From Prostheceraeus crozeri (lineage: Eukaryota > Platyhelminthes > Polycladida > Euryleptidae): DNA of 64,000 bases. Location of the stretch: NCBI GenBank assembly GCA_907163375.1, contig CAJQUW010008653.1, forward strand, positions 310,001 to 374,000, in the 5' to 3' direction. This document shows, piece by piece, positions 34,713 through 56,999 of this stretch (within the stretch, counting starts at the first letter, position 1; each line of letters starts with the position of its first letter). Made by a program: the position numbers and the translations under genes. Below the pieces are notes generated by a model, which saw nothing but the letters and a program-made list of their open reading frames with translations, had not been told where the DNA came from and made no database searches.

Positions 34713-34792
34713 TCTATCCAGCCTGACCGCATCTGTAGAATTGCAGTGTCCCCAGACAGTGGAGCAGTAGTCAATGTGTGAAAGAATGAAAC

Positions 34793-35313: not shown

Positions 35314-35344
35314 AATGAAACACTTTAAGAACTTGAGTCGCGCT

Positions 35345-37174: not shown

Positions 37175-37553
37175 GATTGGCGTAATTCACTTTCTAAAGC
37201 ATTTCTGAGTGGTAACATCTATGTACCGTACTGTGCAGTAACTTTATAAGTAGCATCTTTGACTCTATCTTTTGCTCTCTTACAGCTTGTTATTTGACTT
37301 ATTGACCTTATTGATCTATTGTCTTTACCTATGGCAGGATTTTGACGTAGTTGTAAGTTTTAATCATTTGTGTAGAATCTTTCCACCACTAGTTGTATGC
37401 TCACGCAGAGAACAATAGAAGTATTTTAACTTGCGCAATTAAATTGCTTGTTGGTATTCATGTTTCTGTAATAGGCTAATCTGTTCATTTGAAAGAACTT
37501 TCACTTTTATAACGTCTGTATAGCTATTTGATTTGCAGACGAAAACACAGTAT
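37175..37553. other. No gene recognised
   Basis: Possibly the Penelope 3' flank. A+T-rich, no frame of note. Confidence 0.35.
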
Positions 37554-37557
37554 TTAA

Positions 37558-39514: not shown

Positions 39515-39972
39515 TTAACTATCATCAACATGCCAACTGCGATCCCTATGTTGATCAATGGGCGAGAAAACACATTCATGGACTTAATCTGAAATATTTG
39601 CAAGACTATGGCTTTTCTTGTGAGAGTGCTCTTCTTATTGACTTTAAACGATGGTTAGCTGCTTTCAATGTTATACGCATCTTTTGTAATAATCCTGGTA
39701 AGGAGAGGAAAGTATTTCCCAATCTAATCATTGATGACATTTTGCTCCCACCTTGGGATAGTAGAGTGAATCAACACTACCATGAAGTCACGAAACGTTT
39801 TAAGGATTTGTGTGTTCCTATTTTGTCTGTTCGTTGTAGTAGCTACGTTCATAACCAATGCTTCTTTCCTCCTTACCTCAACACTGCCAAAGTCCTGTAT
39901 GGTCATCATTGCTCGCTGTATGATAGTTACCAGCTGTATCTATTTTATCTGTTTCAAACCATTGATTTATAA
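39502..39972 (+). CDS. Unknown protein at the left edge of element 1, probably partial
   Basis: The frame is open from 39,502 with the first ATG at 39,598, but the residues before that ATG (ANCDPYVDQWARKHIHGL) look coding. So the true start is probably upstream and was separated by the foldback insertion ending at 39,514. Readable features are SALLIDFKRWLAAFNVIRIF, FPNLIIDDILLPPWDSRV and two Cys-containing segments near the C-terminus. The sequence after 39,972 continues in other frames (CCYEKSCF-like and a short AVQDYVINFHKDETDIEAVV piece at 40,110-40,200), so the gene is broken. No family is recognised. Confidence 0.4.
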   Translation, partial: FLRHFNYHQHANCDPYVDQWARKHIHGLNLKYLQDYGFSCESALLIDFKRWLAAFNVIRIFCNNPGKERKVFPNLIIDDILLPPWDSRVNQHYHEVTKRFKDLCVPILSVRCSSYVHNQCFFPPYLNTAKVLYGHHCSLYDSYQLYLFYLFQTIDL

Positions 39973-40203
39973 TGCATGCTTGTTACCGTTATTCAATAAA
40001 TGTTACTATGAGAAGAGTTGTTTTCATGCAATGGATGGGTTAGATAAAGGGCGATCATGTCTTTCTCAAACGACTGCGGAACATTACATTTTCATAGGCA
40101 AAGTTTAAAAGGAGCTGTTCAAGATTATGTGATAAATTTTCATAAAGATGAGACCGACATCGAAGCAGTGGTCGATGATGCTAGCACTCTATTTCTATAG
40201 TTA

Positions 40204-40467
40204 ATGAAAACATTCTCTGATAGCATTGTCATGGCGCGATTAGTTGCGAAAATTAAGTTTAGTCATTTTGGAAAGGAAGAGGTGGAAAGCCGCTCTTTCC
40301 ATTTTGCTTCTTATTCAATGGAAGTGGTAGATCACCCCGAAGAATTTTTTAAAAGACATATGATAAAAATTGCTGAACGTCTTAACGCATTTAACCATCA
40401 TGGCAGCAGTCTAGTGATTGAAGCGATTTCAGATATTCACATTCAACTTTCTATAAAGAAAAATTGA
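40204..40467 (+). CDS. Small protein with a polymerase-N-terminus-like motif
   Basis: A protein of 87 residues. The C-terminal half, RLNAFNHHGSSLVIEAISDI followed by HIQLSI, resembles a motif in the N-terminal region of this element's own DNA polymerase (VHKFNQRDSALIFDGVDSAI followed by FKISLL near 50.3 kb). The pattern is a helix, F-N, a G/D-S pair, a short hydrophobic run, then an I-x-I-x-I/L strand. This suggests a paralogous or split-off domain. The next gene overlaps its stop by four bases (ATGA-type overlap at 40,464). Function unknown. Confidence 0.55.
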   Translation: MKTFSDSIVMARLVAKIKFSHFGKEEVESRSFHFASYSMEVVDHPEEFFKRHMIKIAERLNAFNHHGSSLVIEAISDIHIQLSIKKN

Positions 40468-40793
40468 AAATGCAGTGGTACTTGATTGTAGCACAACTGG
40501 TTTTTGAGCTATGTCTGCTCACTCTCGAAGTATATTCCTTCTGTACATGCGTCTATCATTTAGAAAAGGCTAGCAAATTCATCTCTTCAAAAAGACTTGC
40601 TATAGACATCAGTAACGGTGAAACTATGTGTTGCGATGTATGTAAGCGAAAGGATGGAAATGAAAAGCGCATCTTCAAGAGATGTAAGCATGCTTTTTGT
40701 CAACGCTGTTTCATACGTAATTGCATTCAACTTTGCAAATGTAACCACTGTGATATTGCTCATTTCGAGTGTCACTTATGCCGCAATAGTTAG
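40464..40793 (+). CDS. Membrane-anchored RING-type zinc finger protein
   Basis: A protein of 109 residues. Residues about 4-33 are hydrophobic (a signal-anchor or transmembrane helix: WYLIVAQLVFELCLLTLEVY). Residues 56-107 form a Cys/His cluster of RING type: MCCDVC, then RCKHAFCQRCF, then CKCNHC and CHLC. Spacing fits a cross-brace finger with C-x-H-x2-C-x2-C in the middle. Similar small RING proteins act as ubiquitin ligases on membranes; here a role against host defence or in membrane remodelling is conceivable but unproven. It overlaps the preceding gene by 4 bases, consistent with one transcription block running to 44.9 kb. Confidence 0.65.
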   Translation: MKMQWYLIVAQLVFELCLLTLEVYSFCTCVYHLEKASKFISSKRLAIDISNGETMCCDVCKRKDGNEKRIFKRCKHAFCQRCFIRNCIQLCKCNHCDIAHFECHLCRNS

Positions 40794-40844
40794 TACCTAT
40801 GCAAATGTGGTAGAGACAGGTTTTAGCAAAGATTAACACGGAAA

Positions 40845-41369
40845 ATGGCGAAACGTAAAATGACGAAACGTAAAAGTCAAAAGTCTTCAAAGTTTTCTTC
40901 AGCCATTCAAGCTCTCCGACGAATGAAAGCAAATCAGCGATACAATGCTATACGACATGCTAACGATAAATTCATTCGTGAAATTATTTCTCATGTGAGA
41001 AAGTTGAGGACGAAGAAATTAGCACCAAAACAACGAAAGTTACTTAAGCGATATGCTGCGAAATTGCGTTTCATCTCCAATCCTAAAGTCACCCTTCAAA
41101 GAAAGAGGGAAACTCTAACACAAAAGGGTGGTCTCCTTCCAGCGTTACTACCGATGCTAGCTCCTATCGTGGGCAACGTATTGGGTAATATCTTTCAGAC
41201 GATGAAAATGCCAACAAATTGGTTTAAGACGTCACCTGCTACATCCCCTCCCACACTCACTAAGCAAACAAGAGGAAGAACTCGTCGTAGATCTACACCA
41301 CCACTAAAACTAGTAAAAGGAAAACGTAAAACAGCTCCTCCCAAGAAATACATGTTCTCAGACTATTAA
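40845..41369 (+). CDS. Basic virion-associated protein with hydrophobic segment (pX/pVI-like)
   Basis: 174 residues, very basic. Residues 1-100 are Lys/Arg-rich helices (KLAPKQRKLLKRYAAKLRFI). A Gly-Gly-hydrophobic block follows at about 108-130 (LTQKGGLLPALLPMLAPIVG), then a Pro/Thr/Arg/Lys-rich tail ending KKYMFSDY. The arrangement of basic region, KGGxLPxLLP and amphipathic hydrophobic helix is common to small proteins next to the capsid genes of Polinton/adintovirus-type elements. It resembles adenovirus pX or pVI in character. Likely role: DNA condensation and membrane interaction in the particle. Confidence 0.6.
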   Translation: MAKRKMTKRKSQKSSKFSSAIQALRRMKANQRYNAIRHANDKFIREIISHVRKLRTKKLAPKQRKLLKRYAAKLRFISNPKVTLQRKRETLTQKGGLLPALLPMLAPIVGNVLGNIFQTMKMPTNWFKTSPATSPPTLTKQTRGRTRRRSTPPLKLVKGKRKTAPPKKYMFSDY

Positions 41370-41370
41370 T

Positions 41371-41586
41371 ATGAAGCAGATGTGTTGCTTGCCATGTAAT
41401 GAGCCGCCAGAGGTGAGTGTCGTTGTCACTTGCACTTGCTGCGCCAGCTCTCACAATGAAACCCCTAAGCAATGTGAACACGATCGCAAAACCGCTAAAG
41501 CTAAATGCTGCAGTTGTTGTAAATGTAGAAAGGCAAGAAAACAAAAAGATGAGAAGGAGGAAAAAGAGTCAGTCGTCATCGACTGA
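41371..41586 (+). CDS. Small cysteine-rich protein
   Basis: The frame of 71 residues starts 2 bases after the previous stop and has 12 or more Cys in clusters (MCCLPC, CTCCAS, CCSCCKC), then a charged tail (ARKQKDEKEEKES). It overlaps the possible 5' end of the integrase gene in another frame. Short length and overlap leave some doubt, but cysteine spacing this regular is unlikely by chance. No family recognised. Confidence 0.4.
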   Translation: MKQMCCLPCNEPPEVSVVVTCTCCASSHNETPKQCEHDRKTAKAKCCSCCKCRKARKQKDEKEEKESVVID

Positions 41587-42637
41587 ACGTTTGAAGTCAA
41601 TCTATTATGATGTAAAACATCCGGCAGGATTTGCATCGATCAAGAAATTATCAAAAGCGAGTGGTCTTCCACAATCACAAGTGAAACGATGGTTAAAGGG
41701 TCAGGCTACCTATACACTCCACAAACAAGCGAAAAAGAAGTACCGCACCCGCCATTATATTGTTCATGACATCGATGAACAGTGGCAAGCAGATTTGTGT
41801 GATGTTGCCTCCATTTCAAAACATAACTCGGGCAATAATTTTATTTTAACCGTCATTGATATTTTCTCGCGTTATGCGTGGGCTTAACCTTTAAAAACTA
41901 AAGAAGGGAAAGGAGTAGCAAAAGCATTCCAAACAATTTTTCGAGAAGGTCGCATTCCAAAAACAATTCAGAGTGATCAAGGAAAAGAGTTTGAAAATCA
42001 GCATGTGAGAAGATTATTTGAGAGGCATGACATTGAGTTGTTTAGTGTAAAGAGTGCCTATAAAGCTGCACTCGTTGAACGTTTTAATCGCACATTAAAA
42101 AATCGCTTGTGGCGACATTTTACTGCCAACTTGACACAAAATTGGACAAAGGTTCTACAAGATACACTCCATGCCTACAATCACTCTATCCATCGTTCTA
42201 TTGGACTCAGACCAGTAGATGTAAATGCTGACAATGTAGATAAAGTGCGCGAATCATTCCAACGTAAACGCACTCATGTGAAAAGTGATGTGAAAATTGG
42301 TGATAAAGTTCGTATCTCAAAAGTGAAGAGTGTTTTTGCTAAAGGGTACCTTCCGAATTGGACAGAGGAGGTATTTACAGTATCAAGGATTGATCAAAAA
42401 GACTCTCCCACCACCTACAAGTTGAAAGATTACGATAATGAAGAAATTGAGGGTAGGTTTTACCGCGATGAGATTGAGGTAGTCACTGAAAGTGAAACAT
42501 ATTTGGTAGAGAAAATCATTCGATGTAAAAAACGGCAAGGTGAAGAATGGTGTCTTGTTAAATGGACTGGTTATCCTTCAAGTATGAACTCTTGGATGCG
42601 TCGTGCCGACATCTTTCATCTAAGTGATCGACAGTGA
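41549..42637 (+). pseudogene. Integrase with C-terminal chromodomain (element 1), one in-frame stop
   Basis: The best start is the ATG at 41,549 (earlier in-frame ATG at 41,456). The N-terminal part has a small helical zinc-free domain (ASIKKLSKASGLPQSQVKRW). The rve core follows, with first Asp in EQWQADLCDV, FILTVIDIFSRYAW, second Asp in SDQGKEF and Glu in ALVERFNRTLKN, so D,D,E are all encoded. A TAA at 41,885-41,887 interrupts right after YAWA, and the same frame continues to 42,637. An SH3-like tail (KIGDKVRIS) and a chromodomain (YLVEKIIRCKK...WCLVKWTGYPSSMNSWM) end the protein. Polinton integrases insert the element into host DNA; chromodomains can direct them to heterochromatin. Confidence 0.88.
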
Positions 42638-42678
42638 TTCATGCAAAGTTGTAACTAACAATGTTTAGGGTTTGACCT

Positions 42679-43134
42679 ATGAATCCAACTGCCTCATTTT
42701 ATTCACGACCCTCCTATGTAAGTAGTGGAGGACAAATTTACAGCGGCGCTCGCCGCCAACGTGGAGGTAGCATACTTGGTGCACTGAAATCTGTTGTAGC
42801 ACCTCTCATATCCAATGTCGGTAGATCTTTAAAACGAAATGTTTTAAGTAATGCCGTTGGCTTTGCTGGTGATGTTGCTAGTGATCTTTCCAGAGGTAGA
42901 AGTTTTAAGAGCAGTTTGTTGAATCGTGGGAAGGAACGCGGTTTAAAAACATTGAAGCAGACCTTTGCTTGTGTTACTCAAGGAAAGAAATCGCCTAAAC
43001 GAATGAATAAAGGAAGAAGGAAACATCGCGGAGCTGGTAAGGTGCGATCTTCAGTCAAAAGGCATTCACGCAAACGTCGCAGAGGCTCTAATCATTCATC
43101 AGGCGCTAAACGACGACGCTGCCATAACTTCTAA
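42679..43134 (+). CDS. Minor virion protein candidate (amphipathic and basic)
   Basis: 151 residues. The N-terminus has RRQRGGSILGALKSVVAPLI, a Gly-Gly-led amphipathic helix, then KRNVLSNAVGFAGDVASDLS and SLLNRGKERGLKTLKQ. The C-terminal 45 residues are Arg/Lys-rich with a likely nuclear signal (KRHSRKRRRG, AKRRRC). Proteins with a GG-amphipathic helix, AGD block and basic tail sit beside the capsid genes of Polinton-like elements and resemble adenovirus pVI in layout. The stop is only 2 bases from the start of the capsid gene, supporting co-expression. Confidence 0.6.
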   Translation: MNPTASFYSRPSYVSSGGQIYSGARRQRGGSILGALKSVVAPLISNVGRSLKRNVLSNAVGFAGDVASDLSRGRSFKSSLLNRGKERGLKTLKQTFACVTQGKKSPKRMNKGRRKHRGAGKVRSSVKRHSRKRRRGSNHSSGAKRRRCHNF

Positions 43135-43136
43135 TC

Positions 43137-44402
43137 ATGGAGTGTAAAACTTCCGGGTTTTGTTTGTTTGATCAACAAGCCATACAGACAGATATTCTTA
43201 GTTCAAGTATTGTAGATTATCATCCTCGAACAGCTGAGAATGCTGGCCCCATTCAATTTGTTATTCCTGGTGGTAGTGATGATTACATAGATTTGAGTTA
43301 TGCGATGGTTGATTTGTGGTTTAGAATTCAGCAAGCAGATGGACCTGCTATTGACGATGCACATAAAGTTGGACTGAACAATTTACCATTGACTACATTA
43401 CTTCGCGATGTTTCTCTAACGATTGGAGAGCAGCAGGTGGAAGGTGGTCAAAGTGATTATCCCTATAAATCATATTTCAATCATGTATCACAGTTTCATC
43501 CAGCAGCACAAAAAAGTCATATGGAAGCCATGGGATGGTACAGAGATGAAGCAGGAGAATTTGATGCTGAAACAAACAGTGGCTTTGTAAAGCGATCTGC
43601 TATGATTAAAGATAGTAAAGTATTTCAGCTATATGGTCCGCTGAATTTAGACTTCTTTAGACAGTCAAAGTTTTTACTCTGTAATACCAGCATGCGACTC
43701 AAGCTGACATTGAATAAGCCTGAATTTGCGCTGAATGCATTTGCTAAAGTTGACAATTTTAGAATTCATGTGGAAGATATTGCACTTTACATTCGTCGAG
43801 TAGTACCGAATCCAAGTGTTATTAGAGGGCATGCTGAAGGTCTTAACCGCCAAAATGCCATTTACCCCGTTCAGCATACAAAGCTTCTCACCTTTACAAT
43901 TCCGGAAGATCAAAAGAGTTTCATGAAAGATGGCCTCTTTCCATCGGAAGCACCGAAGCTCCTCATGGTGGCAATGGTTGAAAATGATGCATTTAATGGT
44001 AATATAAAGAAGAATCCTTTCAATTTTAAACACAATCAGTTAAGTGAAATTGCTTTACGTGTAAATGGTGTGAGTCATCCTGGTCCACCCTACAAACCAG
44101 ATTTTGCTTCGGATCAATTTATGCGCAGTTATGTTGATTTTATGGATGTCTTTGGCTTTTACAATACGGATGACACCAACGGACTGACTATGAAAGAGTT
44201 TAAGAGTGGATATACTATTTATGCATTTGATTTGACTGCTGACAGCGATATTAGTGCACCCTATCGTCAAGCGAACGTGCCTCATAATATTCGTTTGGAT
44301 TTGACGTTCAAAAGAACACTACCTGAGACGATCAATGTATTAATTTATGCAGTCTTCGATTCAAATATTGAAATTACAAAGTATCGTGACGTGATTCTTT
44401 AG
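43137..44402 (+). CDS. F54H12.2-family protein, probable major capsid protein of element 1
   Basis: An intact frame of 421 residues. The start region (SSSIVDYHPR, then PIQFVIPGGSDDYIDLSYAM, then LWFRIQQADG) and LTTLLRDVSLTIGEQQVEGG followed by YPYKSYFNHVSQF match in form the F54H12.2-like proteins. Those are annotated in many invertebrate genomes beside virus-like DNA polymerase genes. Alternating beta-strand-rich sequence across two halves is compatible with a double jelly-roll. The length is below the 600 or so residues of the classical Polinton capsid. It lies between a minor virion candidate and the maturation protease. The role as major capsid protein is inference from family, size and position. 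Confidence 0.68.
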   Translation: MECKTSGFCLFDQQAIQTDILSSSIVDYHPRTAENAGPIQFVIPGGSDDYIDLSYAMVDLWFRIQQADGPAIDDAHKVGLNNLPLTTLLRDVSLTIGEQQVEGGQSDYPYKSYFNHVSQFHPAAQKSHMEAMGWYRDEAGEFDAETNSGFVKRSAMIKDSKVFQLYGPLNLDFFRQSKFLLCNTSMRLKLTLNKPEFALNAFAKVDNFRIHVEDIALYIRRVVPNPSVIRGHAEGLNRQNAIYPVQHTKLLTFTIPEDQKSFMKDGLFPSEAPKLLMVAMVENDAFNGNIKKNPFNFKHNQLSEIALRVNGVSHPGPPYKPDFASDQFMRSYVDFMDVFGFYNTDDTNGLTMKEFKSGYTIYAFDLTADSDISAPYRQANVPHNIRLDLTFKRTLPETINVLIYAVFDSNIEITKYRDVIL

Positions 44403-44413
44403 TATAATCGTTA

Positions 44414-44875
44414 ATGAGTTGGTTGACTGCTGACGATATTAAAACTAAAGTGCAGCGTAATGCAGACGAAGCGACGTTGAAAGCTTTCGATAATGTCTAT
44501 TCGCTCGATACCTTACCATCTGCAGTAAATCACTATCCCAGCTTTATTGTGCTAAACACTCATTCGCAGAATTTAGGCGGTGAGCATTGGAAAGCGATCT
44601 TTATTGGAGAAGACCGACGTGGTGAACTATTTGACTCTCTTGCTCAACCTCCAAATATACCAACACAGCAGTGGTTGAGAAAACATACGCGTCAATATCA
44701 GCGAAATGAACGCATACTACAACATCCACTTTCATCAACGTGTGGTGCTTTTGTACTGTACTTCATCTTAAAACGTTTACATGTACCTCGATTTGCATCT
44801 GTTATTCAAAACTTTTCATGTAATCCATCCTCTAATGAAAAAATGATTTGTAAGTTCTATCATGATTTGAAATAA
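44414..44875 (+). CDS. Adenain-like cysteine protease (element 1)
   Basis: 153 residues, intact. The order of the adenovirus-protease/Ulp1 fold is clear. FIVLNTHSQNLGGEHWKAIF holds the catalytic His, ELFDSLAQPP the acidic residue (Asp), and LQHPLSSTCGAFVLYF the oxyanion Gln and catalytic Cys. In Polintons and adenoviruses this enzyme trims capsid precursors. The stop codon TAA lies within an AATAAA signal at 44,872-44,877. Confidence 0.88.
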   Translation: MSWLTADDIKTKVQRNADEATLKAFDNVYSLDTLPSAVNHYPSFIVLNTHSQNLGGEHWKAIFIGEDRRGELFDSLAQPPNIPTQQWLRKHTRQYQRNERILQHPLSSTCGAFVLYFILKRLHVPRFASVIQNFSCNPSSNEKMICKFYHDLK

Positions 44876-44905
44876 AAACATCATGTTGGAAAAATTGTTT
44901 TTTAT
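44872..44905. terminator. Convergent polyadenylation signals overlapping two stop codons
   Basis: AATAAA on the plus strand includes the protease stop at about 44,873. On the minus strand AATAAA follows the TBP-like stop at 44,902 within a few bases. The two 3' ends overlap within about 35 bases, as in compact viral genomes. Confidence 0.6.
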
Positions 44906-45447
44906 TTTACAATCCGCTGGGTACGTACATACTCGATGAGATAGTCTAGGATCACATTTGCTTGTACATGAGATTTTAGTCCAGTAATGATCACTTTACT
45001 ATTATGAAAGGTTGCAACATGCACAGGTAACCAACAACTAATGAGAGCTGCAGGAAAAAGTTCGGGTTCATAACACAAATTGTAACTGCTGGTACGAATC
45101 TTCAAAAATGATACACTTTCACTCAATTGAGTAGAGATCACCATATTGTCCACAGTCAGATTCGACATCACACACCTCTCCCTCTTCCATATCCGACGTA
45201 GTAGTCTCTGTAGCTCTAAGCGCATTGACTGCGCCGATGAATGGGAAAGGGCGCCGAGAATCTGTACAGTCCTATTTGGGAAGAGTTGAAGATTCCGTGA
45301 ATTGTTCATCTTCACCACTAACATTTGAGGACGGCCCGGGTAATACTTGCTGTTTGGAAGGTGTTGGTGTAATGTTGTGAGATCGATTTTGGTGTAGAGT
45401 CTGAAGCGACGGAGAATGTTGACGATGGTGTAGCGATGGCGCTTCAT
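44902..45447 (-). CDS. TATA-binding-protein-like (two-repeat) protein
   Basis: 181 residues from the ATG at 45,447 (MKRHRYTIVN); the frame is open further upstream but overlaps another gene. Two TBP-type half-saddles are visible. Repeat 1 has SKYYPGRPQMLVVKM, then LQLFPNRTVQILGALS. Repeat 2 has DNMVISTQLSESVSFLKI, then CYEPELFPAALIS and VATFHNSKVIITGLKSHVQA. The YEPELFP motif and the strand pair F-x-S-x-K-V-I-I-T-G are hallmarks of the TBP core. Each repeat ends with a helix (LELQRLLRRI; VILDYLIEYV). A DNA-binding transcription factor that redirects host RNA polymerase to element promoters is the likely role. It is intact. Confidence 0.82.
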   Translation of the reverse strand: MKRHRYTIVNILRRFRLYTKIDLTTLHQHLPNSKYYPGRPQMLVVKMNNSRNLQLFPNRTVQILGALSHSSAQSMRLELQRLLRRIWKRERCVMSNLTVDNMVISTQLSESVSFLKIRTSSYNLCYEPELFPAALISCWLPVHVATFHNSKVIITGLKSHVQANVILDYLIEYVRTQRIVK

Positions 45448-45739
45448 GATGAAAAAATGAGTAAATTGAGCGATGTACCTTCCTTTTATACTTTTCCCAA
45501 CTACCTTGATGAAATTTGAAGTTAGTATGGAGTTGGGAATGATAGAGTTGAATTCGCTGTTTGTTGACGCGCAACCAGATGCGATTTCCAATACGTGAAT
45601 GTCTTTTCATATAGAAGTATTTCAAGTCCTTCATGATATGATGTAGAGATTGAAAATGACGATAAGATAAAGCAAACTCTCTTCTCACATTTCCAGTTGA
45701 ATCTTTGAAATAGACGTTCCATACATGAATGGGAACCAT
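45272..45739 (-). CDS. Unknown protein overlapping the TBP-like gene
   Basis: 155 residues. The first 95 or so (HVWNVYFKDSTGNVRREFAL, SYRHFQSLHHIMKDLKYFYM, RIGNRIWLRVNKQRIQLY) lie upstream of the TBP-like start and look like a folded basic domain. The rest overlaps the TBP-like gene in another frame and is Ser/Pro/His-rich. Its ATG is 2 bases from the ATG of the divergent gene at 45,742, which leaves no promoter space, so at least one of the two starts is probably wrong. No family recognised. Confidence 0.45.
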   Translation of the reverse strand: MVPIHVWNVYFKDSTGNVRREFALSYRHFQSLHHIMKDLKYFYMKRHSRIGNRIWLRVNKQRIQLYHSQLHTNFKFHQGSWEKYKRKVHRSIYSFFHHEAPSLHHRQHSPSLQTLHQNRSHNITPTPSKQQVLPGPSSNVSGEDEQFTESSTLPK

Positions 45740-45741
45740 TC

Positions 45742-47022
45742 ATGGGATGCATTCCATACAATTTAACGTCAGATGGAAAGTGGAACTATGAATGGATTCA
45801 GATAAAATCAGATTATTATGAACCATTCGGGAATGAGAAAATTATTAAGGCATTCAACAGTGGTAATACTTCCATCATGAAGAATAAGGATCAGAAAGTT
45901 TATGAGTTTACTATCTATCATTAGAGTGGGAGGCAGTTCCTTCGCTTTCATTCTTTTACTAAAGGTCTTACACTGAGGTTGGATAATGAATTCTATCCAC
46001 ATCTCGGTTTTTGGCATGGTCTACATCTAACGTCAATTGCTACTGCAAATGTTAAAAAAGTTTATTCAAATCGAATCAACAAATTTCATTATAAATTTAA
46101 AATATTTGATGAAGATGTTGTAGAATGCGAAGAACGCATCATTTTGAAAAAGCGTGGTGTTCAACCTTTATCACTTATTGAGTTAGTAAAACGATGGAAT
46201 GAGACTGTGGGTAAGAAGTATGGAGAGAAAATTATGGCGGACAAAAATAAGTTGGTCATTCAGAAATATAATGACAAACTTACAGTTTATTTCTCTCCAA
46301 CCTTGCGTCATTTTGTAAGACATTATACACCTATTATTGGAAGCAGTCTGGTGTATGCTTCTCATGAATATCACACTAAAGCTGATTCAGTTAATGATGA
46401 ATGGTGGGTGGACATCTATGGTGATCGCATCAAGAAAATTTACCAGTCTTATCAAGAATCTAAAGTTGCTATCAATATAATGCCGCGTCTATATCATACA
46501 GTTGAAAGCTTCATTCATGTAGTAAATCCTTATATACAACAGAAGTTGAAGCATGTGATGAAAAGTAAATATGATGTGAAGACACACCACATTTCGTTTT
46601 CAATTGAAAATCAACGCGTTGTTCTGAAACTGGGTGATGACATTCAATGTCAATTGAGTAAAAATTTGAAAAAACTCTTTGGCTTTTCAATGCTACAAAC
46701 TGTGTTTACTGCTGCGCATACGATTGGTATAGAAACACCAATGACACTTGATAAACATGAACAGCACCTTTACATTCAAAGTGATTTGATTCTTCCTATT
46801 TCTGTTGGTGAGAAAAAAGAATACATTTTACGTGATTTCATTCATGATAAAGACGCTTCATATGGAATAGTCGAGAAGATGTTTGAATCTATTTTCTATC
46901 ATCCCGTCGTCAAACAAACTATACCCTCTATTGCTATCAAAATTACCAATGGTTTACAAGAGTGCATCCATGTGAAAGATACTAAATCCCTCGTAACGTT
47001 AGTGTTTCGGAAAACAAAGTGA
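45742..47022 (+). pseudogene. Unknown large protein of element 1, one in-frame TAG
   Basis: Frames 45,742-45,924 and 45,979-47,022 are in one register, separated by a TAG at 45,922-45,924. The readable sequence between continues the style of the protein. Together they would give about 425 codons. The longer part has beta-rich segments (GLTLRLDNEFYPHLGFWHGL, NKLVIQKYNDKLTVYFSPTL, VINIMPRLYHTVESFIHVV-like runs). No catalytic motif is seen. Size and position among structural genes suggest a second capsid (penton or vertex) protein, as a guess. An AATAAA signal is present at about 47,047. Confidence 0.5.
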
Positions 47023-47201
47023 AGTCATTGTGATATGTTTATTGAAATAAAAATATGTGTATGAAAAAGTCTTTTCACAGATAAAGGGGGAATGGGCTGA
47101 CTGTAGGCATATATTCACAAGGAAGAAACGATCTCATGCGACACATAAAACAACCATGTATATCTACAAAAAGCAACATCAAAATACTGAGTTAAAGTTG
47201 A
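47023..47201. other. Convergent 3' ends of the unknown gene and the polymerase gene
   Basis: Contains AATAAA at about 47,047 for the plus-strand gene. Nothing else is seen. Confidence 0.5.
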
Positions 47202-50200
47202 TTATGTCAATGCATCTCCTGAATGTGGTAGCGTGAGTTTTATTCTTTTGGGTGGAGGTATGTTTGTGTCAGGATGTCCATGTGGAAGAGATGTGTTATG
47301 TCCTATCCAACACCTCTTATCCTCCCATGCTGAAAGCGCTCGTTTCTTGAACGTGTGCGTTTTCACAGTATGAACTTGAGATTTTAAGATTGACAAACAA
47401 TATAGTTTTATTTTTATAGGCCTTCTTATAGGACCGATGTTTCATTTTGTGAACAATGGATTTTGATATACCTTTAGCACGCTTAATACTATCTGCACAT
47501 TCTTTTAATTTCATGGAATACATTTTAGGACGGAGGAGAATCATTTCATCTATTTCCTTTCCTGCTGTTTCATCCTTACAACAACCAAGTTTGGCTTTAT
47601 TCTGTATGGAATAGAGTGGATGAGTGGGATTGTAGTTAAATGTATCGAAATATTTTTCTAATGACTTACCTACTTCATTAAAATTTAAATCTTTTTGAGT
47701 GGTAATTCCTAAAAAGAAACTATCTGTATCACCACCCAGCAAGCGAACCTCTTTTACGAGAGGGCATGGTTTTAATATTTTGTAGAAGAGTTGATACATT
47801 TCAAGCTTGGAATAATCTAAAACGGCTTGTCCAATATAGATGGGTTTGCACAACTCAACTTCTGATTTTATCATTTTAACACCTACAAAATCCTCATCGA
47901 TGACGTCTCTATCAATGAAAAGAGGTGATGAGGTCAATTTGTGATATTTTTGTTCATCAACGACTAGTTTGTAGTTCATACGTTTTCTAACATCCTCCAT
48001 GGTCTTTCCGAAAAGACTGTTATTCTTATATTTATAAAAATCCTTTTCAAAATTATTTTGGGCGAGTGCACGTTTTTGACTGTTACTATCTATGTAGGGT
48101 TTGAGGAAGGCTTTCTGTCTAAATTTGATAATGCGGTGAACTGACTTTAGAAGCATGCCCATTTCTAAATAGAATTTTAGTATGCAGAAGTCCACGAGAT
48201 AATTTTTCTTATCATATTGGGTGAGCAAAAATTTGCGGCATGGTTTGTACCTTGGCTGTCCACACTCTGTTAAGTTATTATGAAATTGTGACATGAATGG
48301 TGAAAACATATCTTCAGTCACTTCACCAGATTCAGGTGCGAGTGGGAAATCAGAAGTTTTATTTTTAATACTATTTGGATAAATCAAATCCACTTCAAAA
48401 TAATATCCCCAATCACCTTTATCTGGAATCTTCAGTATGTTTGAAGGGTTGGAGTAATACGCAAGCTCATCTTGATTTAACCAACTAAACTCGGAGTGAG
48501 GTACTGGTTTAGACAGTGAACTGCCATATAAATTATTTTGGTCATAGTACTTTAGGTGGATATGATCATTACCTACTGTTTTAGATTTTATGTGATGTTT
48601 ATTCACAAATGTGAGACCACCGCGTATTCTGCGCTCAAATATGTTATACATCTCGGGTCTTGTAAGAGATGGATGGTCTCACCAGTCATTTTAAAGGCTG
48701 ATTTAAAGGACATGGCTGGTAGACTGACAAAGTGGACAGGATCTAATTTGTCTTCTTCTAATCCCACTCGTCGAAATTCCTGAAAGACATCAGCCAGCAA
48801 AATGACATCTAATTCTAAGTAAGCGATCATATAATCGCCAAACGTTTTACAATCAAATTTTAACCATGCCTCTTGAGCATGTTCATAGTCCTCTACTGGA
48901 CAATCTTGACCCGTCAAATCGTTTTGGAATTTGTCAATGGAAGGAAGGGTTGTTTCATTTAGTTTAGACATTGAGCTAAAATACGCATAGGGAAAGACTC
49001 CTTTGCGAGTGATTATTTCATCCGTTAAGTTTGGATAGTGTTTCTTCAAAGTTTGACTATGGGGAAGAAACTTGAGATTACGAACGAGAGAAGCTAGTGA
49101 CGCTGACATGAATTGGAATGAATCTAAAAATTTTATTTCGAAGAAGACTGTCTTGTTTTCTTTAGTTTTATCTACTGGTACTTTTGCTGTCATTGCCATG
49201 AATTTTTCTCTCGTTTGCGCTATTACATTAAACTGCCACGATTTCATCTGGCTCAACCCTCCTTTTATGAGCATATGACTGTCATAGCCCTTAAAGTTAT
49301 GAAAAATTACGGGTAGTACACGACGTCTCAACCTAAGTGAAAAGTTACATTTGGAGCAGAGTGCGTTTCTAAATTTACCAGTGATGTGATCATGATCACG
49401 CACTTTCTTAATTTTATCGTCATCAAACGTTTTATGACATTTAGGGCACGATGTGCAACTTTCAAATTTCTGTTTGTCTTCATCTGACATATGTAGTGAC
49501 TTACGCTGCAATTGGGAATCATATGATTGTTGAAATTTAGCAGCTTTATCGAGAAATTCTAGAAATTTTGAAATACAATCTTCACCTTGCCAAGTATGCA
49601 TTTTGTTTTGCCTATTTCTAAAGTGGTCATGCCATACTTCATAGCAGGATATGGCTGCTGGCTTGTGGATGATATCATCAATGTAGCATTCTATGTCTGC
49701 GTAAATGACACGCAGGGGACTTAATTCGTCACCATTATCCCTATGTGAAAATATTTTATCTTTGGGCATGCGTTCCATTTGTAATTTACCTCGCTTGCAC
49801 CATTCATAGTGAGTTTCAAATTTATCTTTACTCCAAAAGGAGCGGATGCAGCGGTCGCATACAAAATGTTCACCTCTTTTAGAGTGCCCCAAGTGAGTGT
49901 ACAAGCGAGAGATTTTGGGAATACCACAGTAGTGCCATTCCTCGCTATCATCTTGTTTTACTAATAAGAGGTTGACTACACGTTCATAACAAGTTGAACG
50001 TGAATTATAGCGGGCACCCTTCAACCCCTTCTCCCACACGTGAACGACAATTTTAATCTTATTATGTTTTTCGAACGTTTCTACATCTTTGATTTTCATG
50101 TTGTTACTATCACAACCTTCAAAGTCTAGTTCATCCTCCCACTGTCTATAGCTATAGGTGCGATCTCGATGCGCGTTGATATCATTATAGTGAAGGATGG

Positions 50201-51011
50201 ATAGGACTGCGTATTTGAAACACTGCGATTTACAATCGACATTGATGACAGCTTTCTTATTATACAACGTTTTTGGTAGTTTAAATGTGCCTCGAGCTGC
50301 ATGACTTTCTAATAGGGAAATTTTGAATATGGCTGAGTCCACACCATCAAAAATGAGAGCGCTGTCGCGTTGATTGAATTTATGTACATTTGATCTTAAA
50401 CATTGAATGTGAAAATTTAGCCAAGACTCGCAGTCTACAACTTCGGTTGCGGAAGAGGAAGGAACATGAAACTGTATTCTCTCCGTCACTTGACCCGTTT
50501 GAAAATCTATTTTAATATATTTTAGTTTAAGGTAGATGAGCGCCTTCATTCTAAAATTGTCTAAATTGTTGAAGAGCGCTTCGATAATGTTAGAATTTTG
50601 AAGAAGCCACTCAGGAAAATCTACTATTTGAGTATTGGACTCCATGCAGTAGTCGCGTACTAAAATATTATGTGAAACATTAATGAGGGAGATGGTAGAG
50701 GTACCGTTGGTGTAGTGATCATTTGCATGCGTGTGTTGAAGTCTGTGCGAAGATCGCTGAAGGTGAATATCAAAAGAAAGAGGGCACAAATCGCAAGGAA
50801 AGGAGATGTCATCGTCAGAATCAACTTCACCTCCGGAGATTGACGCCGCTTTGCGTTGACACACACGTTGTTTGATGTGTCGAAGGAGACTGTGCTTCCT
50901 TGTAAACATATGTCCGCAGTCGACACATTCCCACTCGTTGCCTTGTCGCGAGAGTCCTGAGCTGGAACTCACATCACCTGAAAGAGAAATCATTCTATCA
51001 TCTCTGTTCAA
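47202..51011 (-). pseudogene. Protein-primed-type DNA polymerase B (element 1), two frameshifts
   Basis: About 1,270 codons in three frames: 51,011-48,6xx, 48,651-47,39x and a C-terminal piece to 47,202 (KTHTFKKRALSAWEDKRC). Breaks are near 48,660 and 47,390. The N-terminus has C2H2-type fingers (WECVDCGHMFTRKHSLLRHI; FPCDLCPLSF; HFVCDRCIRSFWSKDKFETH). Then come exonuclease motif I (VIYADIECYID) and an EndoVII/HNH-like Cys-His cluster (CPKCHKTF, VRDHDHITGKFRNALCSKCN). NFKGYDSH is the second exonuclease region. Polymerase motifs follow: YFEVDLIYPNSIKN (A region), YKNNSLFGKTMEDVR (B) and LLGGDTDSFFLGI (C, DTDS intact). The family copies Polinton DNA by protein priming. Confidence 0.9.
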
Positions 51012-51445
51012 GTCTCAGTGTATTGTTACAACCTACTTTGACTCAACAACTCTAAACTTTCCTCGAGAAGGGAGGGCGTTGGTGATGAAGTTGATGCCTG
51101 AAATTGAGGAAGATGCTATTAGCCACACGTTTGAGGGAGATGAGTGAAGAAATTTTCAACTTACCATTTCAACGAAATCAAGTTTAAGGTTGATACTTCA
51201 ACAAGATAGAGACTTCACTCAAATTTGGAATTCACGAGAGAGCAGTTCACTTGTACGCCTCAAATAATAACAGAATTCGCTAGAGAACACTTCACTTATA
51301 TGTCACAAAGACAGAGTGAAATGACACGAATGTCACTTTACATATATACTTTCATATTCATCATTCATTGGCTGTTCATTCTTATTGGTTGCTTGTTTAT
51401 ACTTAAGAATTAGGAAACATTTCAAAGTTATTATTCACAGTCAAC
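51012..51445. promoter_or_regulatory. Divergent intergenic region between polymerase and the 51.4-kb gene
   Basis: About 430 bases separate the ATG of the polymerase (minus) from the ATG at 51,446 (plus). It has two GAATTC/ACTTCACT-type repeats near 51,225-51,300 (both sharing the form GAGAGCAGTTCACTT / GAGAACACTTCACTT). A bidirectional promoter is likely from position; no core motif can be fixed. Confidence 0.4.
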
Positions 51446-51892
51446 ATGACAAGCCCTCCGACAACGCCAAACACAAAATTCTCTTCTCCATGCTCAACAC
51501 CAAAGGCGCTCGTTGCACCAAACTCTCCAACGAAGGGGTAGGTAGAGAAGGTGTACCGACTGGACAATATCAGAAAGTTGTCATTACCAGCGGACGACGA
51601 AGAGAGTGTATGTGAGGAGGAGTGTCCCGACTTAACAGGCGTGAGGTGGAAGTTTCTGCAGTACGATACTGATGATGTGATGGAGATCACCAGCACCAAA
51701 TTCCTCCACCAATTATGGGAATGGTACACCCCTGACTCCCAGCCACGAACTATAGCGGAGTGGGAGTACATCGACAAAGTGAGGCTCGCGGTAGAAGAAC
51801 GATTGAAGCAAGTGAACTGTTTTTGCGATCTATGTGAAGTCAGACTCTGGGACGATATTGACGATGAAGACCTTTTGAAATACATGCCATAA
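51446..51892 (+). pseudogene. Unknown acidic protein, one in-frame TAG
   Basis: The frame opens with MTSPPTTPNTKFSSPCSTPK, a Ser/Thr/Pro-rich start. It meets a TAG near 51,539 and goes on in the same frame as VYRLDNIRKLSLPADDEESV, CEEECPDLTG and LHQLWEWYTPDSQP, with a Cys pair CFCDLCEVRLWDD at the end. About 148 codons in total. The stop codon TAA overlaps AATAAA (about 51,890). No family recognised. The acidic C-terminus and Cys pair could form a small zinc site. Confidence 0.5.
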
Positions 51893-51942
51893 TAAATTTT
51901 TATTTCGTATTATCTTTGCTTTCATACTGACTTACTTGAATG

Positions 51943-52354
51943 GGGCTTAAGTGGATGATTTAACCATGTATACTTTTTCATTTGGAAATAGTAGCACGCT
52001 TAGTCTAACTTGTAAATCTTATAACATTTCATATGGGCGATGATGGTAGATGAAATAGTGTTAAATAAAATTAAGATGGCTTACACTTCTGATACAGGGA
52101 TAGCAATCGACTGCGATCCATGTGTAAAGAGCTTGTTAGACTACGGATGGGCTTAAGTGGATGATTTAACCATGTATACTTTTTCATTTGGAAATAGTAG
52201 CACGCTTAGTCTAACTTGTAAATCTTATAACATTTCATATGGGCGATGATGGTAAATGAAATAGTGTCAAATAAAATTAAGATAGCTTACACTTCTGATA
52301 CAGGGATAGCAATCGACTGCGATCCATGTGTAAAGAGCTTGTTAGACTACGGAA
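51943..52354. repeat. Tandem duplication, 206-base unit, two copies
   Basis: GGGCTTAAGTGGATGATTTA recurs at 51,943 and 52,149, and the copies run on to GACTACGGA with only a few differences (for example GGTAGATG against GGTAAATG). Each unit contains an ATG-led frame ending ...VKSLLDYG, and only the second copy continues. Confidence 0.85.
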
Positions 52355-52443
52355 GAGAGAAGTGTGTTATGTTGCGTGTGGCGCGTGAGTGTCCTCCCAT
52401 TTCATTCCATTCATCAATTCGTCTCATTGATAGAGACAGGTAG
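52249..52443 (+). CDS. Possible small protein in the duplicated region
   Basis: A frame of 64-65 residues (MVNEIVSNKIKIAYTSDTGI ... CDPCVKSLLDYG ... ECPPISFHSSIRLIDRDR). The first 45 codons are repeated in the upstream duplicate at about 52,044, where substitutions are few. Three or four Cys are present. There is no family match, and it may not be translated. Confidence 0.3.
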   Translation: MVNEIVSNKIKIAYTSDTGIAIDCDPCVKSLLDYGREKCVMLRVARECPPISFHSSIRLIDRDR

Positions 52444-52932
52444 AACTCATGGTTCTCATAACGTATGCAATGGAAAGTTTTAGGCAACCTTCGACAGTTC
52501 GCTAAATGTCGCCCTGGCGCGAATGCATACTACGTTGAGACAGAGGCAATCACTTGCAAACATGACGCAGAGAGGTTTAACAAGATTGACCATTGCCGAA
52601 TGTCCCTTGCGGTATACATAGCTACGGGTTTCAGCACCGCCCTTTACAGGAACGCCCGTCGAAAGGAAGTATTACACCGAACTTCATTTGCAACGTTCAA
52701 GTTGACTGATAGCAGATTCAACTTAATGATAGTATTCGCCAGTCCGAAGACTGCCCAGGGCAAACCGCGTGGAGGTTCTATCATGTCTTGCCCCTAGGTA
52801 GCCCTTAAGAGAGCCGATGGTTCGTTCTCGGGAGTAACGTGATGGGGTGGTTAAGGCGGGTAAAAGATCTGCAATGAAAATGATATGTATTAGAATAGGA
52901 TATACTATCTTATTTGCTTTTCACTTACCAAG
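52444..52932. other. Unassigned, higher-GC stretch
   Basis: An open frame 52,465-52,797 exists but its composition does not look like the flanking genes and no features support it. It is followed by the 3' end of the coiled-coil gene. Confidence 0.35.
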
Positions 52933-54075
52933 TTAGCCATCCTTAGGCAGTCTCGCGCGCTTCCTAACAGAAAATTTGTGTAAATGTCCTTGCATTCTCA
53001 GTGTGGCATGCAGACATTTCTTGGTCGGATGGCCATTGTAGCAAATGATTGACTCGTCGAGACTACGGTTGACGAGGACTTCACCGTCCAAATGATTATC
53101 CCGAATAGGGATGTGAAACTCAAACAACCTATCCTCATTCACACGATTCCACTCATCCCTCATGCCCTCCAACTTCTCAAACGCCTGTCTCTCATCACCC
53201 CGCCGAGCCGCATTCCTCTCCAACTCAACATTCCTCGCTCTCAACACACTCATCTCCTTCATCATCTCCTCAAACTTCGCTTCTGCATCTCTCATTCTTC
53301 TCTCCGCAGCACTCGCACTCTTCTCACAGTCATCATTCTTCTCTTCCAACTCTCGCGTCTTATTCTTCAAATCAGTCACACTACGCCTCATTCGAATATT
53401 CTCATCCGCTACCTCCTTCGACTTCAGTTCCTTCTTTTTCAACTCATCCAACTCCTTCACGACTTCATCCTTCACCTTCTTCAAACTCTCATACTTATTC
53501 ACCAACAAATCATGCGCCATCTGCTGCGATACATGCTTCTTCTCTTCACCCTTCAACCACCTCGCCGACTGCACACGAATCGCACCACTCTTCACTTTTG
53601 GGGAAGATGAGCTCTGCGGGGGGTCGGTGATGACAATGTTTGACACCTCCGAGGAAGAAGAGCTCAACTTCCTCACACGCTTCCTCACATGCTCCCTATC
53701 TAAATCCACATCATCCTCATCATCACTCTCAAGCACTCTCTTTCGCTCAATCTCAGCCTCCAACGAAGCAACTGCTCTCGCCAACTCATCATTCTCAACA
53801 TAATTCTCAACAACATTCTCCACCTTGCCGTCTCGCTCTATCGCCAACATTCGCTCCCTCTCTTCAACGATCAACTGCGTGAATCGCAAGTCATTCACCA
53901 AACCTCCACTACAGTCAGCATGCACTCTGTAAAAACGCGCCTCATCCTCATCACCCTCCAACACTTTACACTTTACACACGCAACCCTATTCCAGATAAT
54001 CATGTGGTCGGTGCCCACCTTCTTCACATGCGCCTTAGCGTCCGCACTGCGATTTATTCGCCCACATGTACACAT
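52933..54075 (-). CDS. Coiled-coil protein with N-terminal Cys motifs
   Basis: 380 residues, intact. Residues 1-52 have MCTCGR, then VACVKCKV and HADC, a possible zinc site. Residues 68-130 and 180-320 are long Lys/Glu-rich coiled coils (for example VKDEVVKELDELKKKELKSK). Between them lies a Ser/acidic, nuclear-signal-bearing part (DREHVRKRVRKLSSSSSE). The C-terminus (LFEFHIPIRDNHLDGEVLVN; RKRARLPKDG) is a small conserved-looking basic tail. Whether it belongs to element 1 or flanks it is undecided; strand, compactness and small intergenic distance favour element 1. The long plus-strand frames over it are shadows of the coiled coil. Confidence 0.6.
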   Translation of the reverse strand: MCTCGRINRSADAKAHVKKVGTDHMIIWNRVACVKCKVLEGDEDEARFYRVHADCSGGLVNDLRFTQLIVEERERMLAIERDGKVENVVENYVENDELARAVASLEAEIERKRVLESDDEDDVDLDREHVRKRVRKLSSSSSEVSNIVITDPPQSSSSPKVKSGAIRVQSARWLKGEEKKHVSQQMAHDLLVNKYESLKKVKDEVVKELDELKKKELKSKEVADENIRMRRSVTDLKNKTRELEEKNDDCEKSASAAERRMRDAEAKFEEMMKEMSVLRARNVELERNAARRGDERQAFEKLEGMRDEWNRVNEDRLFEFHIPIRDNHLDGEVLVNRSLDESIICYNGHPTKKCLHATLRMQGHLHKFSVRKRARLPKDG

Positions 54076-54978
54076 TTTGACATGTTATTTACGGTTCTTG
54101 TCATTTGCCATGCCTGAGATTTCTTGTTAACTGTAAGATAATGAAATTTGTATAAGTTTGGAATCATGTAGTACAGTCATATTCCTAAAGCATTACACTT
54201 AGTGAGGAATGATAGATTTGAGTGTAGTGAGTGGCACTCGATCCCGTCGGCAGCCCGAAGGCCTTGTACTGATCACTAGGGAAGTGAGAGATCTTCCCCG
54301 ATACCCGCTCTTTACAGCTGAAGACATCATTGTCACTGCCCCGAAGTGGTAACAGCAACGCCGAGTCAAAGGTAGTGATCAGTAGCTGGGATCTAACCCC
54401 TCAAAGCTGCCTTAGACTTAGTCAAATTTCAAATCTGATAGCAGATTTGAACTCAGCATACTTGAAAACCTTAGTCTACATGTTAAAACTTTGAAAAAAC
54501 TGAAAATTAAGAATTTTTAAAAAATTCCGCATTTTACTACTCCTACTACTTTTAAAAAATTTTATCAGTAGTAAAGACACTATCAAACTCTATCACACAA
54601 ACTTTGAAGTAAGAAGATAGCTTGCCTACTTCAAAAGATAGAGTCCTTTGAAACACCCAATATCGGGAGCTCAGAGCGACGACCGTCGCTTACCTCGTCT
54701 TTCGATGAAGTGATGAGACTTACGTTGTCGGGGGTTTATATATGCTCGGAAGAAAACTTAAAATGGCTCTATCTTCGAAAGTATTCATTGTAGCGACATG
54801 CGGTTTGCTGAAAACGGTTCGTCTCATCATTCTCTATCATATGACATCTGAACCATTCTCGTATGACCACGGGAAGTTGGTGCGTCAGCACATGTCCATG
54901 TAACATGCCACAAGTGAAAAAATTCCTAAGTGTGAGAGCTCCAGTGTGGTGAAAATTTGAAAAATTTAAAACTTCCGA
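54076..54978. other. No gene seen; short self-complementary motifs
   Basis: 54,290 and 54,385 areas contain ACTGATCACTA and TAGTGATCAGTA, an inverted pair about 100 bases apart within a GC-richer block (54,225-54,410). The rest is A+T-rich. I looked for a 5S or tRNA gene here and saw none. Confidence 0.35.
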
Positions 54979-55094
54979 ATTTCGACCTGGGACCTTTACC
55001 AAAACATTTTTCATCAAATTTCACTGACCCCCCTCCCCCCCTCGTTTGGAGAAATTTGATGAAAAATGTTTTGGTAAAGGTCCCAGGTCGAAAT
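54979..55094. repeat. Perfect 44-base hairpin
   Basis: Arms 54,979-55,022 and 55,051-55,094 are exact reverse complements (outer ends ATTTCGACCTGGGACC). The 28-base spacer contains the C-rich run CCCCCCTCCCCCCC. The flanks continue with partial complementarity (AAAATTT-type runs). Confidence 0.9.
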
Positions 55095-55255
55095 GCCACA
55101 CTTTGGAAAATTTTCAAAATTTTACCCATACAAAGTCACTCTGACACTTAGGATTTTTTAAGGTGAGCTACGACATTCCACCCTCCCAACCTGGCCGGCA
55201 CACCACGCCAACCTGGAGAGCGGAGCACACACCACCTCGCGCTACGTCGGCCGGC

Positions 55256-55400
55256 CAGAGGGGGGGACGTCAGACTCGAAGCAACACGACGGCACACCAC
55301 GACCGACTCGACGGACAGGAGGGGGGGACGTCAGACTCGAAGCAACACGGCGGCTCACCACGACCGACTCGACTGACAGGAGGGGGGGACGTCAGCGACG
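55256..55400. repeat. GC-rich tandem repeat, about 61-base unit, 2.3 copies
   Basis: GGGGGGGACGTCAG recurs at about 55,261, 55,322 and 55,383, with the intervening CTCGAAGCAACACGRCGGC...CACGACCGACTCGAC nearly identical. The block is strongly GC-rich against an A+T-rich background. Confidence 0.88.
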
Positions 55401-56999
55401 GCAGCCATCTTGCGCGTTCCAGTGGTGGAGTTTTACTTACTACTGTAGCTGTCCACAACTTTTCCCTTTGACACATCGACGACGTTTTTGTCATCACATC
55501 GACGCCTCCAAATTTGGATTGGCTACATCAATTCAGACGACACTTTACTTGTAGAATGCTTAACTGGTCTTAATTGATTCTCAAAAGTCGCTTAACTAAT
55601 GTTCATTGAAATTGTATCATTTTCGCAACATTTTCTCTAAAATGGTGACCACAATTCGCTATCACATCGACGGCTACTTATTGTGATCTCCTAACCAGAA
55701 GAAATGCTCATTGGATCTAATATTTTCATGATAAATAGTCTGCCCTAAGACTTTCATAATGGCATAATTGGATTTTTCATTTGATCTTTTAACTGTAGTC
55801 TATGCTTCAAAAATACCACAAAGTGTCATCATATCAACGCCGTTGATATTATGATTCTCAGCGTCGATGTAATGATCGAAATTTAAGTCACGATTTAATC
55901 TACACTGCTCGACATGATATCCGTGGAAGATACTTGGTGTACCAGCAACGCAAATGTCTTAGAAGTGTAGCGATTGGAAAAGTAAGGCACCGATTGCCCC
56001 GTTTCTACATCTACACCTTGCAAACAGTTCCTGTGCAATATTCAAGCTTTACCTCTTTTTATCTTTGAATTAACGAGTGGCTTCTTTCAAAGGAGAAAGT
56101 GACAAAAGAAGGAATCGGATTATTGATCACAAACTCCGGTACCGATTCTGAAGATTTTTTACAGATGATCTAAATGACGTATCAGAGTCTGAGAATGGTA
56201 TCACGAGATGAGTATAACCGAAAGCACAGGAGAGATCAGAAACTGTCATGGCAATTGAGTACTAAACTATGCGAGTATCTTATATTGTGGCATTCGACTT
56301 TTAAGGTAGGCTACCTAATTTATTTAATACAATACATTCAACTATTTATATAAAAGTCGATATTCTTTAAAACGTCTCACATAGCCTGTATCAAGTCTAG
56401 ACCATAGAAATCTCTTCAAGCATGCAAGTAGGCCTAGACCTAGATACAGCTACTTTTATCAAATCTCCATTGAAATTTAATAAAGAACGCAACAAAAGTT
56501 ATAATAATTAAAATACCCTGTGAATATCTTTTTCATGCTGCACTTAATTGATATAGATCTTGTCAATCACTTCAGCTGCATTTTGTAATTTTTCGGTCAT
56601 TTACTAGGCCTACAATGTAGACTATTCTTGGTATGATTTGTATTTATTAGCTCATGCATCTCTTGTAGCGGATTTTTTCTTATGTTTTGATTGAGAATTG
56701 AAATATATCTATTGCATTCTGTTTTGATACATTGGATTAGATGCAATTGCTATGGTGCCTATTAGGCGCGCCTATATGATGATCATGATGATGTGATCGC
56801 AAAGTAGTACAGTAGGTTAGTAGGTCTATCTTGAATGGCAATATGAAGCATGAAAATGAGCTCAAGCTTGCGCATAGTACATTATGTGATATTTTTCTGA
56901 TGAATAGTATTTGTAATTATTTATTTCTTTTGTGTGTCTGTTAAGCCTACATGTACATACTTTCCGCATCTGTTTTTGGAGAGGCCTCGACCTTTCAAG
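55401..56999. other. No gene recognised
   Basis: Several ATCACATCGACG-like words occur at 55,472-55,505 and 55,660-55,675 and may mark old short repeats. No frame over 60 codons has support. Confidence 0.35.

Follow-up and report, generated by a model that had tools for sequence, protein, structure and literature searches.

In KSHV, the TBP-like domain of ORF24 replaces the host TATA-binding protein (TBP) at late promoters carrying an altered box, TATTWAA, and the accessible part of PMC13345323 describes ORF24 as a large multi-domain protein, belonging to a set of six viral factors, that itself binds RNA polymerase II (Pol II). The TBPs described in the accessible portions of PMC10675990 and PMC10132985 are those of mirusviruses or their putative relatives. 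Among vertebrate Maverick/Polinton elements, the commonest ends are of the (AGT)2...(ACT)2 type, according to the sections of PMC8097293 at hand, and the words "TATA" and "transcription" occur zero times in the main text of that paper. The open-access papers searched contained no description of a Polinton-encoded TBP.

A gene of this kind is present in the 64,000-nt stretch of Prostheceraeus crozeri DNA analysed here (the window). A sequence-only reading of it had placed an intact ORF at exactly 44902..45447 and had proposed a two-repeat TBP-fold protein encoded inside a Polinton-type element. Indeed, an ORF of 181 codons runs on the minus strand from ATG to stop (45447-44902) with zero internal stops, and every peptide quoted in that reading is found in the 181-aa translation. 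The ORF list and the Pfam, PDB and profile matches designate this intact product as an element-encoded TBP. The Pfam TBP model (PF00352) aligns in two stretches, corresponding to both repeats, and scores 61.4 bits where the cut-off is 22.9 (E 7e-17), far above chance. The NCBIfam TBP models cover residues ~4 to ~175 at 7e-17 but stay far under their curated cut-offs. Among the 35 PDB matches obtained with phmmer (E up to 10), 34 bear TBP/TFIID or TBP-fusion names, the top one being archaeal (2z8u, 2.6e-11), and the remaining one, 4wzs, named "ECU04_1440 protein", matches the ORF as the E. cuniculi TBP does.

The profile built from 51 homologues, all of which match PF00352 (51/51), aligns end to end with the M. 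jannaschii TBP (positions 3-176 of 178 against 12-186, E 3e-24), and hhalign gives a probability of 99.4% between this profile and a small cellular TBP profile. The two halves of the ORF match each other weakly (hhalign probability 44%, E 2.4e-4), and identity to the host TBP is only 23-25%. The Pfam, NCBIfam, 51-homologue profile and hhalign results thus uphold the proposed two-repeat homology, and the 181-aa ORF is, by sequence, a two-repeat TBP homologue. This identity and the location within the element are solid; the function discussed below is a prediction.

The element remnant occupies 39519..55444. Similarity to other copies begins abruptly at 39519, the left terminus being lost, while the right terminal inverted repeat region (55051..55444) contains ~61-bp units and ends in ...TTACTTACTACT, with similarity to the copies L009 and L017 stopping at 55444. 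The right end, ...GGAGTTTTACTTACTACT with a terminal ACTACT, is the exact similarity limit in the window, L009 and L017, and L009, L011 and L017 each begin on the left with an inverted copy of the right-end region. On the plus strand, ORF174 (40845..41369) is a fusion resulting from a ~1.2-kb deletion at 41194/41195, which took out the ATPase ORF. It is followed by an N-terminal integrase fragment (41456..41887, plus strand), truncated in the window, whose orthologue in the C3890 copy encodes an rve integrase (PF00665, 37.4 bits against a cut-off of 32.6). ORF151 (42679..43134, plus strand), an open ORF for a basic protein conserved in family C, precedes the gene of a putative major capsid protein of 421 aa (43137..44402, plus strand), also open. 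This product has no Pfam or PDB match, and we take it to be a capsid protein from its position and a resemblance to Polinton "F54H12.2-like" proteins. The adjacent open ORF (44414..44875, plus strand) encodes a putative adenain-like cysteine protease of 153 aa matching the C48 and C5 models, both under cut-off (0.0016 for C48).

Beyond the TBP gene, ORF262 (46234..47022, plus strand) is the 3' remainder of a 519-aa ORF known from the C3890 copy. Two minus-strand ORFs presumably encode PolB, judged from motifs recognised by eye: a C-terminal part (47317..48651) and an N-terminal part with an Endonuclease VII-like segment (48603..50993), the frame being broken between both. Endonuclease_7 is the sole Pfam model over cut-off in these ORFs, which have zero PDB matches. 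The names PolB, ATPase and capsid go by position and visible motifs, without a library model above cut-off; the ATPase-like ORF matches phrog_6891 at 0.0023. No TFIIB or RNA polymerase model matched any of the 18 ORFs scanned with Pfam, which are part of the element's set, and Rfam gave zero matches in the 64-kb window.

Compared with six other copies, the window copy is missing ~1.2 kb at 41194/41195 (the ATPase region) and ~2 kb at 45728/45754, both absent only here. It is thus a damaged copy, with its left end lost, ATPase deleted, integrase truncated and PolB split. The C3890 copy displays ORFs for an ATPase-like protein, rve integrase, capsid, protease, TBP, three products between TBP and PolB, and PolB, and exceeds 19.5 kb since its left end lies at L009:447 and it continues past L010. 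The location inside a Polinton is established by the ACTACT terminus, the rve integrase of another copy and the capsid-protease synteny in diverged families. The earlier statement that the neighbours of the TBP gene carry stops is right for the truncated integrase and the split PolB and wrong for the capsid ORF, the protease and ORF151, which are open.

Other features were observed in and around the element. An inverted repeat with arms of ~460 nt, 99-100% complementary (37551-38011 / 39060-39521), stands right at the left break and is probably another inserted transposon. A 205-bp unit is tandemly repeated inside the element at 51943-52353, with two copies in the window and more in L018. Outside the described element, a plus-strand ORF (59912-60283) has, by eye, a cysteine-protease-like end of the CGQLCLYVLLKL type and is possibly part of a second virus-like remnant, and ORFs at 33948-36094 resemble, also by eye, retroelement reverse-transcriptase fragments.

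The TBP gene of the window belongs to a family (family A) with many near-identical copies. In the 2.05-Gb genome, the best 150 of 11,812 loose first-look candidate places were scored, a sample biased because these are the best-scoring ones; all 150 are 98-100% identical and 149 are stop-free. The capsid-protease stretch is 99-100% identical in all 40 places scored out of 1,375 candidates, and at least 12 of the 40 have a TBP place within 1 kb among the matches listed. This near-identity across the genome therefore points to a recent amplification of family A.

A genome search with PF00352, from which 30 loci were cut out, recovered the host TBP, a TRF2-like gene and four families of element TBPs. 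The host TBP is a separate, intron-bearing gene with two exons ~15 kb apart on C9306, and over the core that was compared its product shares 87% identity with human TBP. The COX1 of this genome reads with the invertebrate mitochondrial code. Three further diverged families (B, C and D) also carry a TBP, to which that of family A is 39-46% identical (39-43% for C and D), a level similar to that of the protease and below that of the ATPase or integrase. The order capsid(+)-protease(+)-TBP(-) is found in families C (L024, L025, L027) and D (L030). Family C shares with family A the order of ORF174-like ORFs, ATPase, O230, integrase and ORF151, at 40-63% identity, as well as an O231-like ORF that comes next after TBP on the map. 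In family D, the O519-like ORF that comes after TBP lies on the strand opposite to that in family A, so that gene order differs past TBP, and the one copy examined has a stop within TBP. Of the six family-B loci inspected, five have PolB close to the TBP gene (L026, L028, L034, L042 and L048; not L038), with a PolB identity of 55-61% over the longest matches. Conserved homologues beside related elements, which the sequence-only reading had expected, were thus found within this genome, next to capsid and protease in families C and D and next to PolB in family B.

Polymorphism within the families was also considered. In family A, it gives no sign of purifying selection on TBP (p 0.77; 21 copies given, 20 kept, ranked by TBP similarity). 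In family B, a sign of purifying selection is seen (p 0.009) among 9 shared and 77 single changes, with 7 synonymous versus 2 non-synonymous or stop changes for the shared ones and 24 versus 53 for the single ones, these numbers being small and the sample picked by TBP score.

Homologues of the TBP ORF extend to metagenomes. Fifty were retrieved by sequence search, and a profile search retained 207 from 3289 candidates, with PF00352 in all 120 listed; the metagenomic ones are predicted proteins, mostly unnamed, on contigs of up to 24.7 kb. Scans of the IMG/VR viral contigs found no locus with a relative of the TBP ORF (sequence P0001; A1 profile) or of the capsid ORF (A4). With a cellular TBP profile, the contigs yielded two TBPs, L055 and L056, on contigs of 80 and 36 kb; these are 51-52% identical to the host TBP and group with cellular TBPs, not with the element family. 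The capsid homologue search gave 261 proteins, with no Pfam domain in any of the 120 listed. Two contig sizes above 5 kb (7106 and 10272) are common to the TBP-homologue and capsid-homologue lists, which hints at contigs shared by both genes.

In a tree of 48 rows, a 100/100 branch separates the 42 element-type sequences from the host, human, E. cuniculi and M. jannaschii TBPs and the two IMG/VR ones. This branch is very long (3.7), and the two IMG/VR sequences are the only viral TBPs in the tree. A recent capture of the TBP gene from the host is very unlikely, and the best explanation appears to be that one group of animal Polintons has carried TBP for a long time.

Conservation of the contact residues was counted over 123 aligned element-type sequences, or over those with letters where stated, using yeast TBP numbering and presumed residue roles. 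Of the four intercalating phenylalanines, which we take to be F99, F116, F190 and F207, three are retained: F116 is F in 123/123, F190 is F in 122 and C in one, and F207 is F in 122 with one gap. The F99 position is lost, being P in 118 (118/119 with letters), Q in one and a gap in four, with F in none. The TFIIB-contact glutamates of the C-terminal stirrup, presumably E186 and E188, are kept, as E in 121, D in one and N in one at the former and E in 123/123 at the latter. N69 is kept in 104/104 sequences with letters, and N159, V161 and T215 in 122/122. At the V122 position, all 123 sequences have Q; the T124 position is L in 107, M in seven, F in six and I in three, never T, and V71 is mostly replaced by M or H. 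The N-lobe replacements are thus uniform (Pro for Phe, Gln for Val and mostly Leu for Thr), with the C-lobe DNA contacts and TFIIB glutamates retained.

According to these counts, the C-terminal lobe resembles a normal TBP lobe, whereas the DNA face of the N-terminal lobe was replaced and then kept. This combination predicts a protein that would bend DNA and recruit TFIIB with an altered preference for one half of the box. With one intercalating Phe and several N-lobe contacts gone, the protein could also bind TATA weakly or not at all. The binding faces for host TBP regulators look, by eye and uncounted, poorly conserved.

Upstream of the TBP gene, TATAAAAGG (45482..45490, minus strand) has its first T 43 nt before the ATG. 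It is present in all 23 distinct family-A places printed, in one of which the ATG reads AAG, and TATAAAA begins at exactly -43 in families A, B (L048) and C (L025). At this box, the family-B copy L038 has TATAAATGG, and in family D (L030) no TATA box precedes the TBP gene. The background rate of the box is 0.022 per 60 nt. The box is spanned by ORF155 (45272..45739, minus strand), which is the truncated version of a conserved ORF lying across the TBP start in a different frame. This ORF has 165, 209 and 199 aa in families A, B and C (L048:933-1562 and L025:939-1538 for B and C) and shares 176, 341 and 311 nt, respectively, with the 5' part of the TBP gene. From its similarity between B and C (34% over 203 aa, E 5e-26), the two overlapping genes are probably a genuine pair. 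The TATA stretch encodes Tyr-Lys-Arg in the overlapping ORF, and because the box sits in this conserved ORF its conservation possibly results from a coding constraint. Of the 12 homologues whose N-terminal extensions are longest, seven have (S/D/V)-I-K before an H-F/H-Y-like stretch and five do not; three more picked by eye (P0003, P0017 and P0033) have it, and others with shorter extensions do not. That (S/D/V)-I-K reflects the same box is only a hint.

The sequence-only reading had suggested looking for TATA-like motifs shared by the element's genes. The TBP gene does have a box at promoter spacing, but in family A 13 of 14 genes lack one between -80 and -20, the TBP gene being the exception, and no other 7-mer is shared among the 14 genes beyond shuffled sets. 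Elsewhere, TATAAA is found closer to the ATG of O107 and O231 in family A (-18 and -7), a TATA-like box is also present at ORF132 (-51) and the protease (-52) in family C, and a 199-aa ORF of family B has TATAAAAC just beyond the scanned range. One candidate shared motif, ATGCAAA, was rejected: it lies 29-38 nt before three of the 14 family-A genes, and some 7-mer occurs in at least three sequences in 698 of 1000 shuffled sets. Its sites are at 40799-40805 and 42641-42647 in the window, ~4260 in L009 and ~383 in L010.

The best explanation of these features, and one we hold to be reasonably probable, is an element-encoded initiation factor that would bring host TFIIB and Pol II to promoters whose specificity is altered. 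In an active element, host TFIID would transcribe the TBP gene early, using that gene's own TATA promoter. The TBP made would then bind promoters with an altered half-site specificity, its conserved C-terminal stirrup recruiting host TFIIB and Pol II, and it may escape host TBP regulators, working as a stripped-down analogue of herpesvirus vTBP. It is plausible, as had been proposed from the sequence, that the element is in this way freed from host TBP. The promoter results being mostly negative, an early/late switch is compatible with the data rather than demonstrated by them.

The main rivals of this initiation-factor reading are a TFIIB trap and a redundant TBP. The protein might serve host shut-off as a competitor whose TFIIB-binding stirrup, combined with a weakened DNA saddle, titrates TFIIB off host promoters without starting element transcription. 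This would suit the very high conservation of the TFIIB-contact positions next to a DNA face of which one half has been replaced, and the fact that no promoter motif common to the element genes was found. However, near-invariant C-lobe DNA contacts and three of four Phe positions would be superfluous for a pure trap, and the N-lobe Gln in 123/123 sequences fits a new specificity and not decay, which makes this role unlikely. Ranking just below it, and likewise improbable, is a redundant TBP that binds ordinary TATA boxes as host TBP does and raises TBP dose while the element is active. Clear TBP homology and the canonical TATAAAA at the TBP gene itself would be expected there, but not an identity to host TBP of 23-25%, uniform N-lobe changes and a TATA box at few other element genes.

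Two other alternatives are weaker still. TBP folds bend DNA, and with a gene placed between the capsid/protease and PolB modules, an architectural role at the element ends, in replication, integration or packaging, can be imagined; conserved TFIIB-contact positions would be useless for it, and we regard it as very improbable. That the gene is a captured host TBP pseudogene carried along by chance is scarcely credible. The element around the window copy is indeed damaged, and polymorphism in family A looks neutral, but the 100/100 branch separates four element families and metagenome homologues from host TBP, the gene order is common to diverged families, and key positions are invariant in more than 120 sequences, so that conservation across families already contradicts it.

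The initiation-factor reading can be carried further, more tentatively and with somewhat less than even confidence, to a large and old clade of animal Polintons having their own initiation factor. In this clade, the TFIIB face would have been conserved and the N-lobe DNA face re-specified once, early; the element promoters would be unread by host TBP, and the host-readable TATA box of the TBP gene would act as the switch. If true, an element of ~20 kb would hold a self-contained early/late programme while borrowing all other transcription machinery, and its TBP would be a core transcription factor that altered one DNA half-site and kept its TFIIB contacts. The conserved element TBP offers a concrete handle, as its predicted DNA specificity, different from that of host TBP, is measurable.

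Compared with archaeal and eukaryotic cellular TBPs (PF00352), the element protein displays the same two repeats, a full-length profile alignment, the TFIIB-contact motif YExE(L/I)FP, the C-lobe DNA contacts and three of the four Phe. It departs from them by an N lobe in which the first Phe is Pro, Val is Gln and Thr mostly Leu, by a one-residue gap ahead of the second Phe strand in each lobe, and by being element-borne. The TRF2-like TBP paralogue of the host (G000 C3829:151570-151938; L022, L029) is, likewise, divergent with altered DNA-contact positions, whereas it has Trp, His and Tyr (part seen) at three Phe positions retained by the element TBP. Vertebrate Maverick/Polintons, as described in the accessible part of PMC8097293, have the same (AGT)2...(ACT)2 end motif, integrase and accessory regions, and ATPase, protease, capsid and PolB genes with putative counterparts here, but their eight core genes and one added ORF do not include a TBP there.

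Among viruses, mirusviruses and large viral contigs resemble this system in that large DNA viruses of eukaryotes carry a TBP gene there (accessible part of PMC10132985; L055, L056), whereas the L055 and L056 TBPs, 51-52% identical to host TBP, fall on the cellular side of the tree. The vTBP of herpesviruses (KSHV ORF24), likened here by its description in the accessible part of the source, is also a virus-encoded TBP-like domain. As the TBP match fills residues ~4 to ~175 of the 181 aa, the element protein has no N-terminal Pol II-binding domain and, unlike herpesvirus vTBP, is just one TBP core, in which the TFIIB-contact positions are conserved.
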